Of a DNA stretch of 12,277 nt, positions 4,429-10,569 are shown one piece after another; the stretch's first letter is position 1, and each line of letters begins with the position of its first letter. Where the stretch lies: the NCBI GenBank assembly GCA_903920405.1, contig CAIXMC010000220.1, positions 1 through 12,277 on the forward strand, in the 5' to 3' direction. The position numbers and the translations under genes are program-made. The notes under the pieces are model-generated. The model worked only from the letters and a program-made list of their open reading frames with translations. It ran no database searches and was not told the origin of the DNA. Source of the stretch: an uncultured beta proteobacterium. GTDB taxonomy: Bacteria > Pseudomonadota > Gammaproteobacteria > Burkholderiales > Burkholderiaceae_C.

Positions 4429-5451
4429 ATGCTCCATCACACCCTCTGTATTGCACCCATGTTGAATCTTACGGATCGTCATTGCAGATATTTTCATCGC
4501 CTGCTCACGCATCATGCACTGCTCTACACCGAGATGGTCACGACCGGATCGCTGATTCATGGTGATGCGGCTCGTTATTTGCACCATCACAAGCAGGAAC
4601 ACCCAGTGGCACTGCAACTCGGTGGCAGTGACTGCGCAGAGTTGGCACAGTGTGCCCGTTTGGCCGAGCAATGGGCTTATGTGGAAGTCAATTTGAATTG
4701 CGGTTGTCCAAGTGAGCAGGTGCAGCGTGGCGCTTTTGGGGCATGCCTGATGAAAGAGCCGCATCAGGTGGCCGATTGCGTTAAAGCCATGCGAGATGCC
4801 GTGGCCATTGATGTCACAGTCAAGCACCGTATTGGCATTGACAAAATAGAAAGTTATGATTTTGTTAGAGATTTTGTGGGAACAATCAGCTTGGCCGGTT
4901 GCAACACTTTCATTGTTCATGCCCGCAACGCCTGGTTGCAGGGATTGAGTCCCAAAGAAAACCGCGAAGTTCCTCCTTTGCGTTATGAACAGGTCTATCG
5001 TTTGAAAAAAGATTTTCCCCATCTTCAGATCGTGATCAATGGGGGTGTATGCACAACCGATCAAATTCATGGCCATCTGCAACAGGTCGATGGTGTGATG
5101 GTGGGACGCGAGGCCTACGACAACCCCTGGTGGTTAAGCGGTTGGGACGCCACATTTTTTGGTTCACAAGAACAGCGTTCAAACCCCATGACCCGTGAAT
5201 GTGTAGAGCAACAGATGGTGGCTTACATGATTGAAGAATCAGCCCATCGCGGCACAGTCTGGCCTTTCATTGCCCGTCATATGTTGGGGCTGCGCCACAA
5301 ACTGCCGGGTGCGAGGCGCTGGCGACAGGTCTGGAGCGACCACACGCTCAAAAACATGTCGCCCGAGCTTGTCATGCAGATGGCGCACAGGTGGCCTGAT
5401 GGGCCATGTGTGGGGGAAACGGCTTCCCACTTAGGATATGGTCAACAATAA
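4429..5451 (+). CDS. dusA: tRNA-dihydrouridine synthase A
   Basis: A 340-residue FMN-dependent TIM-barrel enzyme that reduces uridines in the D-loop of tRNA (positions 20/20a for the DusA subgroup). Seen: APMLNLTDRHCRYFHRLL (9-26), LLYTEMVTTGSLIHGD (31-46), HPVALQLGGSD (58-68), NLNCGCPSEQVQ with the catalytic-type C93, VTVKHRIGID with K132, FIVHARNAWLQGLSPKENREVPPL with H164, and DGVMVGREAYDNPWW. The LLYTEMVTTG and SPKENREVPPL blocks point to DusA rather than DusB or DusC. C91 is an additional cysteine where many homologues have V. The last six codons and the TAA stop fall within the half MITE at 5433-5489, so the native C-terminus (GYGQQ) was probably replaced by repeat-derived residues. No strong Shine-Dalgarno is visible before ATG 4429. 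Confidence 0.96.
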   Translation: MLHHTLCIAPMLNLTDRHCRYFHRLLTHHALLYTEMVTTGSLIHGDAARYLHHHKQEHPVALQLGGSDCAELAQCARLAEQWAYVEVNLNCGCPSEQVQRGAFGACLMKEPHQVADCVKAMRDAVAIDVTVKHRIGIDKIESYDFVRDFVGTISLAGCNTFIVHARNAWLQGLSPKENREVPPLRYEQVYRLKKDFPHLQIVINGGVCTTDQIHGHLQQVDGVMVGREAYDNPWWLSGWDATFFGSQEQRSNPMTRECVEQQMVAYMIEESAHRGTVWPFIARHMLGLRHKLPGARRWRQVWSDHTLKNMSPELVMQMAHRWPDGPCVGETASHLGYGQQ

Positions 5452-5489
5452 GTTTTGCATTTGGCTCGTCAGAGTTAAAGATGCAATGC
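5433..5489 (+). repeat. Solo left arm of the MITE-like element, overlapping the dusA stop
   Basis: These 57 nt match 1034-1089 nearly perfectly (one substitution, one extra T), beginning AGGATATGGTCAACAATAAG. Homology stops sharply at AATGC (5489). The central palindrome and right arm of the full copy are absent, so this is a half element left by deletion or partial insertion. The flank TTAGG resembles the right end of the full copy read in reverse (CTTAGG). The first 19 nt form the end of the dusA reading frame. Confidence 0.8.
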
Positions 5490-5523
5490 CAGAAAAATTT
5501 TCAAAATTATCGGCGACCGTCTC

Positions 5524-5550
5524 ATTTTATGGGAATTTTTCCCATAAAAT
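5524..5550. promoter_or_regulatory. Perfect 27-bp palindrome, candidate operator of the DUF6502-DUF5666 operon
   Basis: ATTTTATGGGAA (5524-5535) and TTCCCATAAAAT (5539-5550) are exact inverted 12-mers around TTT, ending 9 nt before ATG 5560. It is AT-rich with a GGG/CCC core and no following T-tract, so it looks like a protein-binding site rather than a terminator. TAAAAT (5545-5550) could serve as a -10 box, though no good -35 is visible. Autoregulation by the DUF6502 product is inference. Confidence 0.55.
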
Positions 5551-5559
5551 AACGTCACC

Positions 5560-6426
5560 ATGTCGTCCAACACATCATTTGACAACCAATTCCCTGTTCT
5601 CGGTGCCGTACTGCGTACGATGGCACCGCTGGTGCGTTGGCTGGTGCGATCTGGCGTGGGTTACACAGAATTTGCTTCAGCGATCAAGCCTATTTTTCTT
5701 GTAGAAGCGCGCAGCGAGGCTGTACGTACTGGTGGAAAAACCACAGACTCAGCTTTGAGCCTGCTCTCAGGATTGCATCGAAAAGACGTTCGTCATGCTG
5801 CTCTTGATACAGTCACAAGCAGTTCAAACCATTTGGTGACTCGGCCAAGCCTGCCCTCTCAAGTAGTGGCACGCTGGGTGGCATCGGACTTGCCAGATAC
5901 CTTAAGCCTCTTTGGCGAACCATCGTTTGAAACTTTGGTGAAGTCCATCTCTTGTGATTTGCATCCCCGTGCGGTTCAGCACGAACTGGCACGACTCGGT
6001 GTGGTCTGCGTCACAGATGACTCTATAGCGCTGGTGCGCCGTGCCTTCACGCCTGACCCTTCCAAAAACGAGAGCCATCAGTTGCTGGCTGACAACGTTG
6101 CAGATCATTTGTCCGCTGGTGTTCATAACCTGACTGAGGGTGTGCAGCGCAAATACCTGGAGCAAAGTGTGTTTGCAGATGGCTTGTGTGCCAATTCGGT
6201 CAAATCACTGGAGCAGCTTGCCAACCAGCTCTGGAAAGACGTGATGACGTGCGTTGTGAAGGCTGCCGTTCCCCTGTGCGAACACGACGAACCGCTTGGA
6301 GGAACTCAGCGTTTGCGATTGGGCATGTTTTGTTATGCAGAACCTATGGCCGACTTGTCCTTCAAGACAAGCTCGCTGCCTGCAACACAGCAGACCAACA
6401 CCCAAAAACAGGAACCAAAAAAATGA
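5560..6426 (+). CDS. DUF6502-family protein, putative helical DNA-binding regulator
   Basis: A 288-residue soluble protein with no signal peptide or membrane segment. The N-terminal part, PLVRWLVRSGVGYTEFASAI (23-42), followed by TDSALSLLSGLHRKDVR (62-78), is the hallmark of DUF6502 proteins. The region looks like a helical, helix-turn-helix-type fold, with GLHRKDV as a plausible recognition or turn element. The rest is mainly helical; its last residues (ATQQTNTQKQEPKK) are polar and probably disordered. No enzymatic motif is visible. The stop TGA overlaps the ATG of the following DUF5666 gene by 4 nt (ATGA at 6423-6426), indicating tight coupling. A perfect palindrome ends 9 nt before the start codon and no Shine-Dalgarno is visible, so the mRNA may have a very short leader. 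Function is unknown; a regulatory role is suggested by fold appearance and context only. Confidence 0.8.
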   Translation: MSSNTSFDNQFPVLGAVLRTMAPLVRWLVRSGVGYTEFASAIKPIFLVEARSEAVRTGGKTTDSALSLLSGLHRKDVRHAALDTVTSSSNHLVTRPSLPSQVVARWVASDLPDTLSLFGEPSFETLVKSISCDLHPRAVQHELARLGVVCVTDDSIALVRRAFTPDPSKNESHQLLADNVADHLSAGVHNLTEGVQRKYLEQSVFADGLCANSVKSLEQLANQLWKDVMTCVVKAAVPLCEHDEPLGGTQRLRLGMFCYAEPMADLSFKTSSLPATQQTNTQKQEPKK

Positions 6427-7937
6427 AAAATATCATAGTGACATTTTTTGAAGGGGCAAGATGTGTTGGTGCATCTTTGTGTCTATTGACGTTGCTGGTG
6501 ATCAGCGCTTGCGGCGGCGGAGAGGGTGGCAGTTGGATGGCTGATGTGGGTACAGGAGGCACGGGCCTGGCCGAAGGTACGGTCACTGGTTTTGGGAGTG
6601 TGATTGTTGACGGCATTGAATATGACGATTCCAATGCCACCATCGGGCAAGACGATGGCACTGGCGCAATCATCAATGCTGATTTGCAATTAGGCCATCG
6701 GGTACAACTGACGCTCAACGCTGACCGTAGTGTCAAGTCGGCCACAGTTTTGCCCCAATTGGTGGGGACTGCAAGTACAGCGATGGATGCCAGTGGCAGT
6801 TTTCTGGTCATGGGGCAGCGAGTTCGACTGGCCGGTAGTGCGTCCGACACCACCCAAAGTACGGCTGCCGTCTTGGCCGGCTTTGACACCACTGCCATTG
6901 CTGCGAGTGATTCGCTGGAAGTTCACGGTACTTGGGTATTTGACAAACAGCTTGCCTGTTATGTACTGATTGCCAGCCGCGTAGAAAAGCTGACCACACT
7001 ATCTGCTCTTCTGCAACTCTCTGGTGTCGTGCAGGCTATCACGGGCAATGTACTTCTGCTCAACACGGCGACAGGGCTGAAAGTACAGGCCGCCAACCTG
7101 CCTTCTGGTGTGGCGGTTGGCCATTTGGTTAGGGTGTGGGCAACGCAGGCCGCATGGAAAGCCGTGGCTTTTAATACTCTACAAGCCAGCCGTGTGATGG
7201 GCAGCACACTCACTGCTGACGTTATTGCCGATCAAACCCTGCGTTTGAGCGGTACGGTTTCCAGCTATGACGCAGATACGCGAACGGTTGAACTTCAAGG
7301 CACAAAAGTTCAGTTGAGTCCGCAGTTGCAGCTCAATGAGCAGGCCTTGGCGCAAGGTGCGTTTGTGAGTCTTGAAGTGAGGCGATCTGATGACGATCTT
7401 GTCGCCGACAGTGGCACACAGCGGGGCGAAGTGGGGACGGCCACCGATTTGGGGCAAAGCGTGACTCTGAAAGAAATCTCCAATGACATTGATTGGTCGT
7501 CTGACCCCGTGCCATTGAGTCTGCGCGGAGTCACAGTGACAGCGGCTGCTTCAACCATCTCCAGCACCTGTCGTCAAGCCAACCCCAACACTGACCTCCT
7601 GGTCGAGGTGACGGGTCGCTGGTCGTCATCTGTCAACACGGTAGTTGCACAAAAAATTCAATGCACACCTGTCAGCATTGATGATGAATTTGAAACCCAT
7701 TCAACCATTGATCGCAAGGGAGTCGTGTCACAAATCAACTTGACCACGCGCACCTTCCGCCTTCAGACCAAGCATGAATCTGTGAGCGTTCAATGGGACG
7801 GACAGACATTTTTTGCTACCGAATTCAAGAATCACCCCGAAAGCCTGACCGGTCAAAGTGTCGAAGTCGAGGGTGTGTATAAAACAGGCATTTTTTGGGC
7901 GAGAACCATTAAGCGAAGTCAGCAACACGACGATTGA
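6423..7937 (+). CDS. DUF5666-repeat lipoprotein, first paralogue
   Basis: The frame is open from 6186, but the true start is ATG 6423: it gives a lipoprotein signal peptide (MKNIIVTFFEGAR..., hydrophobic core LLTLLVISA, lipobox cysteine C30 followed by GGGEGG) and overlaps the DUF6502 stop. The mature protein (504 residues in all) has repeated beta-rich units of roughly 60-80 residues typical of DUF5666, for example EGTVTGFGSVIVDGIEY (51-67), VGTASTAMDASGSFLVMGQRV, SGVVQAITGNVLLL, SGTVSSYDADTRTVELQGTKV (276-296) and KGVVSQINLTTRTFRLQ. These resemble small OB-like barrels. C383 and C414 match a cysteine pair in the downstream paralogue and may form a disulfide. Likely anchored in the envelope facing the periplasm. 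No catalytic motif is seen; function unknown. Confidence 0.85.
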   Translation: MKNIIVTFFEGARCVGASLCLLTLLVISACGGGEGGSWMADVGTGGTGLAEGTVTGFGSVIVDGIEYDDSNATIGQDDGTGAIINADLQLGHRVQLTLNADRSVKSATVLPQLVGTASTAMDASGSFLVMGQRVRLAGSASDTTQSTAAVLAGFDTTAIAASDSLEVHGTWVFDKQLACYVLIASRVEKLTTLSALLQLSGVVQAITGNVLLLNTATGLKVQAANLPSGVAVGHLVRVWATQAAWKAVAFNTLQASRVMGSTLTADVIADQTLRLSGTVSSYDADTRTVELQGTKVQLSPQLQLNEQALAQGAFVSLEVRRSDDDLVADSGTQRGEVGTATDLGQSVTLKEISNDIDWSSDPVPLSLRGVTVTAAASTISSTCRQANPNTDLLVEVTGRWSSSVNTVVAQKIQCTPVSIDDEFETHSTIDRKGVVSQINLTTRTFRLQTKHESVSVQWDGQTFFATEFKNHPESLTGQSVEVEGVYKTGIFWARTIKRSQQHDD

Positions 7938-7992
7938 TGGTTCATTTCATTTACCGGTACACACTGTTCCCATTATCCAAGAAGGTTAATTT

Positions 7993-9555
7993 ATGAAAAA
8001 CATACAAAATCGTTCCATTAGCTTGGGCCGTATTCCAACGACTCTGGTTGGGGTCACACTCTCTGTTCTACTGGCAGCTTGCGGCGGAGGTGGCGGGGCA
8101 GTAGCCAGTTTACCCACCGGCGCGGTTCAGTTGGCCAGCGGCACTGTCACTGGTTTTGGTAGCGTCTATGTTGACGGTATCAAAATAGAAGATGCGACGG
8201 CCTCGGTCAGGCGAGAAAACAGGGACGGCTCTTTCAGCAATGTGGCACTGAAATTGGGCCATAGGGTGCGTGTTGAGCATGACGGCCTCACGGCCAGCAG
8301 TGTCAATGTAGATGCGGCAGTCATTGGTCTCGTCAGTGCCGTGGATACTGCCAACAACACACTCACCGTTGCCGGGCAATTGGTCAAGGTCAATGCTGAT
8401 AGCACCACTTCCATCATGCCGGTCACTGTCTATGGTGGCATCAATACTGCTGGTGTCAGCTATACAGCACTGACCGATGTCTCTGCCAATGATCTGGTGC
8501 AGGTGTATGGCAGTGCGGTTTACAACAGCGCAGTTTACGAGTTGCAAGCTACCCGAATTGAGGCGCAAAGCACAAATACCGGCACCAGCGTGATGGGTAC
8601 GGTATCCAATATTGACACCACAGCCAAGACCTTCAAGATCAACGGCCTGCAAGTCAATTACAGCGCGGCTACAGTGGTGCCAATGGCTTCAACCCTGACC
8701 AATGACCAGCCTGTGGTGGTATGGGGTAGCAGCTTAAGCAACACCAGTGGAACGCCCACCTTGACAGCCTCACGTGTACGTCTGACCCGTGCCAGTTTGG
8801 GTACGGTTGCATTAGGAAAAACACAACTCAGTGGACTGGTGAGTAAATACGACGCTTTTGCCAAAACCCTGGAAATAGATGGCATCATCATCAATGTAGC
8901 CAGTGCCACTGTAACGCCCGTAGTCAATACTCTGGCGGATAACAGCTTTGTTGACATCAAAGGTAGCTTTAACTCAACCGGTGTGGTTGTTGCAACTACG
9001 GTGCGCATCCGTCAACAAAATACGGGCACTGATACGGCTCGCATTAACCTTGGCGGTGTGATCAGCTCATTTGTGGATAGCACATCTTTTGTGGTGCGTG
9101 GTGTTCCGGTTGATGCATCAATGGCAACAACAAGATGTGTTCTGGCCGATGGGGTGTACGTTGACGTGGTAGCAAAAGCCCAGGCTGGCACTGCTGTGGT
9201 ATTGGCCAGCACAGTCAATTGTCTGCCTGCACCCTCCACATTTTCCATGCGTGAAAGCGAGGGCACGGCATCAATGGTCAATCAAACCGCTCAAACGTTT
9301 ACCTTGATCCATGACGGTCGCACTCAAACTGTACTTTGGTCAGATCAAACCGTATTCACGGGTATTACCGCTGCCAATCTGGCAACGACCGCGAAACTAA
9401 AAGTTGTTGGCTACATCAACAGCAGCAATGTGTTGGTAGCACGTGATATACATTTGGACGGTCAAGACGACCATGATGCATTTACATCACTGTCGTTGGA
9501 TGATGACAAAACGGGCTGGGGTAAATACAAGACAAAGAAGAGCCACAACGACTAA
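7993..9555 (+). CDS. DUF5666-repeat lipoprotein, second paralogue
   Basis: A 520-residue lipoprotein with signal peptide, lipobox LLAAC (C30) and a Gly-rich linker GGGGG. A GAAGG lies about 8 nt before ATG 7993. It shares with the upstream gene the opening motif GTVTGFGSVxVDGI (50-63), the xLGHRVxx block (88-93), and a cysteine pair (C382, C410) at a matching place. At least five DUF5666-like units are visible: IGLVSAVDTANNTLTVAGQLV (111-131), MGTVSNIDTTAKTFKINGLQV (201-221), SGLVSKYDAFAKTLEIDGIII (280-300), GGVISSFVDSTSFVVRGVPV (354-373) and EGTASMVNQTAQTFTLIHDGR. The C-terminus is acidic then Lys-rich (DDHDAF...KYKTKKSHND). The gap to the first paralogue is 55 bp, so the two are probably co-transcribed after gene duplication. 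Function unknown; envelope location is inferred. Confidence 0.85.
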   Translation: MKNIQNRSISLGRIPTTLVGVTLSVLLAACGGGGGAVASLPTGAVQLASGTVTGFGSVYVDGIKIEDATASVRRENRDGSFSNVALKLGHRVRVEHDGLTASSVNVDAAVIGLVSAVDTANNTLTVAGQLVKVNADSTTSIMPVTVYGGINTAGVSYTALTDVSANDLVQVYGSAVYNSAVYELQATRIEAQSTNTGTSVMGTVSNIDTTAKTFKINGLQVNYSAATVVPMASTLTNDQPVVVWGSSLSNTSGTPTLTASRVRLTRASLGTVALGKTQLSGLVSKYDAFAKTLEIDGIIINVASATVTPVVNTLADNSFVDIKGSFNSTGVVVATTVRIRQQNTGTDTARINLGGVISSFVDSTSFVVRGVPVDASMATTRCVLADGVYVDVVAKAQAGTAVVLASTVNCLPAPSTFSMRESEGTASMVNQTAQTFTLIHDGRTQTVLWSDQTVFTGITAANLATTAKLKVVGYINSSNVLVARDIHLDGQDDHDAFTSLSLDDDKTGWGKYKTKKSHND

Positions 9556-9602
9556 ACAAGTTGGAATGGGTCAACCCTTTGAAGATAGAACGATAACTCT
9601 CA

Positions 9603-9628
9603 GCGCATCAGTCCAAAAGCTGATGCGC
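9603..9628 (+). other. 9-bp hairpin downstream of the DUF5666 operon
   Basis: GCGCATCAG (9603-9611) pairs perfectly with CTGATGCGC (9620-9628) around an 8-nt loop. It has no T-tract and lies 25 nt before the intrinsic terminator, so it may be a 3' mRNA-protecting stem. Confidence 0.6.
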
Positions 9629-9653
9629 CAGAAGAAATGAATCCGCAACTTTT

Positions 9654-9684
9654 GCCCGGGCAGGAAACTGTCAGGGCTTTTTTT
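9654..9684 (+). terminator. Intrinsic terminator of the DUF6502-DUF5666 operon
   Basis: GCCCGGGCAG (9654-9663) pairs with CTGTCAGGGC (9668-9677) with one mismatch and one G-U pair around a GAAA tetraloop. Seven T follow directly (9678-9684). This is a classic rho-independent terminator about 100 nt after the second DUF5666 stop. Confidence 0.85.
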
Positions 9685-9698
9685 AGTATAGTGGACAC

Positions 9699-9815
9699 GT
9701 AACCGTTTACACCCCGCCTTGTAGGTCGGACTTCATTCCGACATTTTTGCCTTGTTGTCGGACTGAAGTCCGACCTACGGGACATGGATAAACCAGGCGG
9801 GGTCTAAACGGTTAC
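9699..9815. repeat. Nested inverted repeat, REP/BIME-like element
   Basis: Outer arms: GTAACCGTTTACACCCCGCC (from 9699) and the reverse complement of 9795-9815 agree except at about one position. Inner arms: 9721-9743 and 9756-9778 are inverted repeats matching at 22 of 23 positions. Each inner arm is itself palindromic (GTCGGACT-GA-AGTCCGAC in the right arm). The whole could fold as a long cruciform. GTCGGACTxxAGTCCGAC-type palindromes resemble dispersed REP sequences of proteobacteria. There is no coding content. It lies between the operon terminator and ispD. Confidence 0.8.
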
Positions 9816-9844: not shown

Positions 9845-10569
9845 ATGAGCAACCCGAGGGTTCAAATATTTCTCCTTGCATATACGCTCTGATTCCTTGC
9901 GCCGGAACGGGGTCGCGATCAGGGGCTGCCGGCCCCAAGCAATACCAGTTCATTGCCGACAAGCCTTTGGTGATGCATACACTCGCAGCGTTTGCAGCCG
10001 TGTTGCGCATCACCAAGACGCTGGTGGTGGTAGCACCTGAAGACACATTTCTGGCTTCATACTGTTTTGAAAATACTATGTTTTCAATAGCTAACTGTGG
10101 GGGTGCATCAAGGGCTAAGAGCGTTTTTAATGGGTTAAATGGGTTGCTGGAAGAGGGGGCTACAGTGCATGACTGGGTACTGGTTCATGATGCCGCACGT
10201 TGCCTGATTCTTGCGGATTGGATTAACCAGTTGATTGATGGCTGCCTGCTAGATGAAGTGGGTGGCCTGCTGGCTTTGCCGTTGCCTGACACCCTCAAAC
10301 AATCAAAAAATGCCAGGGTGACAGCCACATTTGATCGTCACGACAAGTGGCTGGCGCAAACACCTCAGATGTTTCGCATTGGTATTTTGCTGCGGGCTTT
10401 GGAAATGGCAGGCGATGCAGTGACCGATGAATCCAGTGCCATTGAGGCCATGGGGCTACAGCCCAGATTGGTGGTTGGCAGTTCGCAAAATTTCAAGGTA
10501 ACCTATTCACAAGACTTTGAACTGGCAGAGGCTGTGCTGCATCACCGTTCCCAAAGGCAGTCTTTATGA
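9845..10569 (+). CDS. ispD: 2-C-methyl-D-erythritol 4-phosphate cytidylyltransferase; 5' end frameshifted or with an unusual start
   Basis: IspD joins MEP and CTP to CDP-ME in the MEP isoprenoid pathway. The conserved protein is readable from codon GCT 9886: [20 protein letters not shown], the CTP-binding loop with its essential Arg and Lys. It continues through [31 protein letters not shown] and [16 protein letters not shown] to TGA 10567-10569, about 227 residues, which is full family length. The first in-frame ATG (9967) would delete the catalytic loop and cannot be the true start. Upstream in that frame, back to TAA at 9841, there is no ATG, GTG or TTG, only ATT 9868 or ATA 9880. ATG 9845 (MSNPR...) looks like a natural start but is in another frame and reaches TGA at 9890-9892. 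A 1-nt loss between 9845 and 9886, a sequencing error or a rare start codon would explain this. The stop overlaps ispF by 4 nt. Confidence 0.85.

Follow-up and report, generated by a model that had tools for sequence, protein, structure and literature searches.

Among the closest known systems to the proteins of family DUF6502 are the TetR-type helix-turn-helix and the winged-helix (IclR, CRP/FNR) regulators, whilst the model of the DUF5666 lipoprotein described below resembles, in fold only, the OB-folds of CusF and YgiW (both periplasmic), of PriB and of the cold-shock domains. The library models of the two families (PF20112 for DUF6502, PF18914 for DUF5666) carry no function; a literature search, with most subscription papers outside its reach, found no paper naming DUF6502 or PF20112, and DUF5666 appears in a table line of PMC10714799. 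The present analysis concerns a locus at which members of both families stand together, on a 12,277-nt stretch of contig CAIXMC010000220.1 from an uncultured beta proteobacterium (assembly GCA_903920405.1), the whole of which is called the window. A palindrome, a DUF6502 gene (gene 1) and two lipoprotein genes (genes 2 and 3) there form a unit (Table 1), for which we consider the following account likely: the DUF6502 proteins are one-component transcription factors, each controlling its own operon through the palindrome, and the lipoproteins made alongside them consist of OB-fold domains strung in a chain and anchored in the envelope.

A sequence-only reading of the window had delimited this unit as a discrete one, made up of a perfect palindrome, a DUF6502 gene for a putative DNA-binding protein, two paralogous DUF5666 lipoprotein genes of which the first overlaps the DUF6502 gene by four nucleotides, and an intrinsic terminator. 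Most of that anatomy stands. The three genes follow one another on one strand and lead into a hairpin with a T run (-15.8 kcal/mol, although 7 of 200 shuffles fold equally well); dusA lies upstream and ispD downstream, neither with an evident link to the unit, and no published description of it was found in the literature search. The palindrome has perfect 12-nt arms about a centre of three T, and genes 1 and 3 are members of their families by the curated cut-offs. The part that did not hold is the assignment of gene 2 to DUF5666: its start does overlap the DUF6502 stop (ATGA) and a lipobox is recognisable by eye, but it has no Pfam match to PF18914 even at E 0.1. BLASTP nonetheless makes it a paralogue of gene 3 (E 1e-29 for a single comparison, with 29% identity across 437 columns), and it is better described as a relative of DUF5666 than as a member by model.

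Table 1. Features of the DUF6502 unit, in window coordinates
Feature	Position	Strand	Remarks
Predicted DUF6502 operator, 27-nt palindrome ATTTTATGGGAATTTTTCCCATAAAAT	5524-5550	.	matrix score 31.0
Conserved core of palindrome, GGG-N7-CCC	5531-5543		
DUF6502 gene (gene 1), predicted transcription factor, 288 aa	5560-6426	+	PF20112 61.9 bits, curated cut-off 27
Codons of residues 63-84, predicted helix-turn-helix	5746-5811	+	second helix from R74 of HRKD segment
Gene 2, lipoprotein, 504 aa	6423-7937	+	paralogue of gene 3
Gene 3, DUF5666 lipoprotein, 520 aa, predicted chain of OB-fold domains	7993-9555	+	PF18914 74.8 bits, curated cut-off 27, five stretches
Intrinsic terminator	9654-9684	+	hairpin 9654-9677, T run to 9684

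What the sequence-only reading had not noticed is that the palindrome is, on comparison of loci, the predicted operator of the family as a whole. The comparison drew on 97 loci (the window, sets of 20 and 60 loci, and 16 short loci, a collection that does not include every DUF6502 match), which yielded 98 DUF6502 frames, 96 of them with enough upstream sequence; the search covered as much as 330 nt upstream of the domain, with tiles from the same contigs as controls. The core GGG-N7-CCC, with at least six of the seven spacer positions A or T, occurs in 46 of these 96 upstream regions and in 9 of 2878 control tiles. When GGG-to-CCC spacings from 0 to 16 were scanned at 70% A/T or more, seven stood out (47/96 loci against 1.2% of tiles), with eight found in 6/96 loci (0.7% of tiles) and zero in 8/96, but in 5.6% of tiles. 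A symmetric weight matrix trained on the GGG-N7-CCC sites of the order, used at a threshold score of 8, recognised a site at 73 of the 96 loci, a count that takes in those used for training, and in 32 of 2878 tiles. A fair test needs loci from elsewhere in the phylum, outside the training order, and there 12 of 16 loci and none of 123 control tiles reached the threshold. Within the window's own subfamily (38 loci from titled genomes, or 37 without L226, which has no usable frame) the corresponding figures are 36/37 loci and 10/963 tiles, four of the 37 proteins being identical to ones used earlier. The TTATGGGAANNNTTCCCATAA pattern, allowing up to three mismatches, was matched in none of 200 shuffles of the window, and with zero mismatches its single match in the 2.68-Mb genome is the window site. 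Looser copies of the palindrome in the same genome, at L002, L003 and L004, had matrix scores of 8.1, 1.8 and 13.3.

The position of the sites bears on how they might act. Across the 73 loci scoring at least 8, the site centre has a median position of -55 relative to the putative start (lower decile -130, range -234 to +16), and several loci carry two operator-like sites. Both features would suit a DUF6502 protein that binds as an activator of the operon, the distances being compatible with activation in many loci; in the window, however, the centre of the site is just 23 nt before the start codon, and we judge activation unlikely. Because the window site directly precedes the start codon, autorepression would be the likeliest mode. 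A promoter scan of the window from 4860 to 5560 gave no match on the + strand.

The protein itself offers a candidate for the reading head. The predicted structure of the window's DUF6502 (mean predicted local distance difference test score, pLDDT, 82.6) has helices at residues 63-70 and 74-84, in keeping with the DNA-binding role proposed earlier from sequence, and R74, with which the second begins, is invariant across 74 sequences. In silico, the protein thus shows both marks of an autoregulating one-component transcription factor: a DNA-binding domain is predicted, and the region of its own promoter carries a conserved palindrome. Among sequence relatives with a solved structure there was a lone row (entry LHD101B4, E 0.046), and an NCBIfam match to HrpD5 was weak (E 0.045, 13 bits against 300) and judged to be chance.

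An argument for a direct relation between protein and palindrome is that the two change together. Proteins were sorted into classes according to which residues they carry at the predicted recognition helix, loci with less than 120 nt upstream being left out. The large [HY]R[KR][DE] class (n=121), to which the window's HRKD belongs, has GGG-7-CCC upstream in 82 cases, GGG-8-CCC in three and GTG-7-CAC in seven, whereas the [TS]RK[DE] class has GGG-8-CCC in 6/7 and GGG-7-CCC in 0/7, two of the seven coming from outside the order and both fitting (for spacing 8, Fisher p 1e-7, with shared ancestry ignored as in all the Fisher tests). Amongst the smaller classes, GTG-7-CAC is found in 2/3 HRKY loci and in 4/9 RR[DE] loci, the latter with no GGG form, GTA-7-TAC in 1/2 HRAE loci, and GGG-7-CCC in 3/3 NRKE loci; the single proteins with HAKD, HRQD, NRKD and NRKV had none of these operator forms upstream. 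On a quick tree of proteins of at least 230 residues (L183 and L184 are among those left out) the [TS]RK[DE] class is one clade, and its shift to spacing 8 therefore counts as one event; the HRKY clade lies apart from a clade of RR[DE] proteins, so that on this tree GTG-7-CAC arose at least twice. That operator form follows helix class would otherwise be hard to explain, and argues that DUF6502 itself reads the site.

The same pattern weighs on two further explanations. Folded as RNA, the palindrome is a stable hairpin (-14.2 kcal/mol, z -5.3, with none of 200 shuffles as stable) ending 9 nt before the start codon, and might on these grounds be an attenuator or a cover for the start site in the leader rather than a protein operator. 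Yet the spacing of GGG and CCC is fixed at seven (eight in one clade), which a hairpin does not need, and it tracks the DUF6502 helix class; the sites of other loci, moreover, lie up to 234 nt upstream and some precede other genes, and we find a leader hairpin very improbable. Nor is it probable, if perhaps marginally less remote, that some other widespread regulator binds the palindrome and merely counts DUF6502 among its targets. The strict site TGGGAWWWWWTCCCA occurs 72 times across a sample of 399 genomes drawn across the order of the window's source, with 40 sites in genomes that have DUF6502 and 32 in genomes without it, and one of the latter genomes, G017, has it before an operon of membrane-protein and multihaem genes. 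Against such a regulator stand the dependence of operator form on helix class and the distribution of the strict site, present in 28/67 genomes with DUF6502 but 32/332 without. Of those 32, moreover, 12 are one fixed sequence, TGGGATATTATCCCA or its complement, apparently something else, and G017, in which no DUF6502 match was found, is just 82% complete. The TGGGATATTATCCCA sequence, seen for example in G195, G231, G261 and G350, looks like a different conserved element.

The account we favour would run as follows for autoregulation by DUF6502. A dimer of the protein would bind the palindrome through the helix that starts at the HRKD segment, the GGG triplets of the bound site (GGG-N7-CCC) sitting about one helical turn apart, and would thereby control, most likely repress, the promoter of its own operon of DUF6502 and lipoproteins 2 and 3. 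As a DUF6502 match is found no more than 400 nt away from 23 of the 40 strict sites of DUF6502 genomes, the regulator would act mostly near its own gene; a large regulon was considered and set aside, the strict site occurring only once in the window's genome. This regulatory part is well supported by comparison of loci, and DUF6502 probably constitutes a new family of transcription factors, one that has an operator code and is partnered by a dedicated lipoprotein.

The partnership recurs widely. In the order sample, 67 of 399 genomes have DUF6502 and 69 have DUF5666 at E <= 0.001; DUF5666 is present in 56 of the 67 DUF6502 genomes, leaving 11 with DUF6502 only, against 13 of the 332 without (Fisher p 3e-44). 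In a sample of 398 genomes across the phylum, DUF6502 was present in 21, of which five also belong to the order sample. A downstream frame falls within the data for 93 of the 98 DUF6502 frames, and for 35 of these 93 a start is possible at position -4 or -1 relative to the DUF6502 stop, as for gene 2 at -4. Once the near-identical L019, L028 and L029 were left out, 74 of the remaining 90 downstream proteins matched DUF5666 at E <= 0.01 and five matched FecR, and the G and GTG residues of a GxGGTG motif are kept in at least 90% of partner proteins. In the window's subfamily, whose genome titles include Rhodoferax, Zoogloea, Ferrovum and Methylibium, a gene-3-like protein lies downstream in 34/37 loci, with two such proteins, as in the window, in 9/37; the Acinetobacter locus L223 and two others have none downstream in the data. 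The adjacency that the sequence-only reading singled out for a survey is thus conserved far beyond close relatives. Partners at L130, L134 and L135 have many GGIGGTG-like repeats at the N-terminus, after or near the signal sequence. A membrane-spanning fusion of DUF6502 to the lipoprotein was rejected, most of the long frames flagged as such opening far upstream of the domain; the sole in-frame run from DUF6502 into a lipoprotein-like segment (L050 of G020, reverse strand 3-1256) is indistinguishable from an error, because the contig ends inside the frame.

The gene 3 lipoprotein is predicted to be of an architecture unlike that of its nearest likenesses in fold. The model of gene 3 (mean pLDDT 86.1) gave OB-fold matches in structure comparison, and whereas CusF, YgiW, PriB and the cold-shock domains are single small domains, gene 3 would be a lipid-anchored chain of several. 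Genes 2 and 3 have lipoboxes, VISAC and LLAAC respectively, after a hydrophobic stretch as judged by eye, and C30 of gene 3 is invariant in 56 sequences. Both proteins would thus be tethered in the envelope, probably at the outer membrane, and a small ligand may bind to them there. The sequence-only reading had proposed beta-structured lipoproteins of the envelope, and this gains support here; nothing was found in favour of the sensor or adhesion role suggested with them. Besides the lipobox cysteine, C410 of gene 3 is invariant and C382 kept in at least 90% of the 56 relatives, with a matching pair in the aligned gene 2; the two are possibly joined as a disulfide.

The operator, the helix that changes with it and the OB-fold chain are new from this analysis. 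With them, families of unknown function (at E <= 0.001 the window's DUF6502 has 407 relatives and gene 3 has 327) gain a first function that can be tested, and experiments have a DNA site and specificity classes to start from. The concerted change of helix and operator spacing also offers a natural example of a regulator that shifts together with its site.

A broader proposal is that DUF6502 is a new family whose own recognition code (helix residues setting operator triplet and spacing) serves to report, with the co-expressed DUF5666 lipoproteins of several OB-folds each, on the state of the envelope, and has been repeatedly recruited to genes for extracytoplasmic electron transfer. We regard this as speculative and doubtful, and the redox link as a lead rather than a result; should that lead hold, extracytoplasmic electron transfer in Proteobacteria would have a named regulator. 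Distant sites precede a membrane-protein gene and multihaem-cytochrome genes in G012, G027, G034 and G017, relatives of which genes lie beside or near DUF6502 at L091 and L136, and in G252 and G341 a distant strict site precedes a gene whose product has two CXXCH motifs. In several genomes of the window's genus, a cytochrome-c lipoprotein (PF13442, L042) and a flavocytochrome c sulfide dehydrogenase-like protein (PF21706, L040 and L048) are encoded near DUF6502. At L045, of the same genus, and at L165 and L166 a TlpA-like redoxin gene (PF08534) is divergent to it, and the redoxin's ApbE-, DUF4266- and DUF3570-like neighbours, recognised by eye only, recall the ApbE/DUF3570/DUF4266/TlpA flavinylation clusters of PMC8238504; the main text of that paper features neither DUF5666 nor DUF6502, and the window has no such genes. 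Enrichment of c-type cytochromes near DUF6502 was rejected as not significant, CXXCH frames numbering 13/320 near it and 11/445 farther off (p 0.29), and no CXXCH-type redox gene was seen in the window. Also at L045, 2 kb beyond the DUF6502-DUF5666 pair, an operator-like site (12771-12795, score 28.6) separates a DsbD gene from a Reg_prop/GGDEF gene.

Elsewhere in the window, ispD seemingly lacks an in-frame start (about 9845-9967): its N-terminal signature is in frame, by eye, from about 9890 and the ATG at 9845 is in a different frame, which may reflect a frameshift, an unusual start or a sequencing error. The stretch directly behind the terminator (9699-9815) contains a nested inverted repeat, formed by GTAGGTCGGACTTCATTCCGACA with its partner; 12 matches to its 22-nt core occur in the genome when three mismatches or fewer are allowed. 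A further dispersed repeat with inverted ends, AGGATATGGTCAACAATAAGTT, occurs at 1034-1183 and 5429-5492, one copy overlapping the end of dusA; with 173 matches per strand of the 2.68-Mb genome at up to three mismatches, often in pairs that face each other across some 140 nt, it resembles a miniature transposable element.
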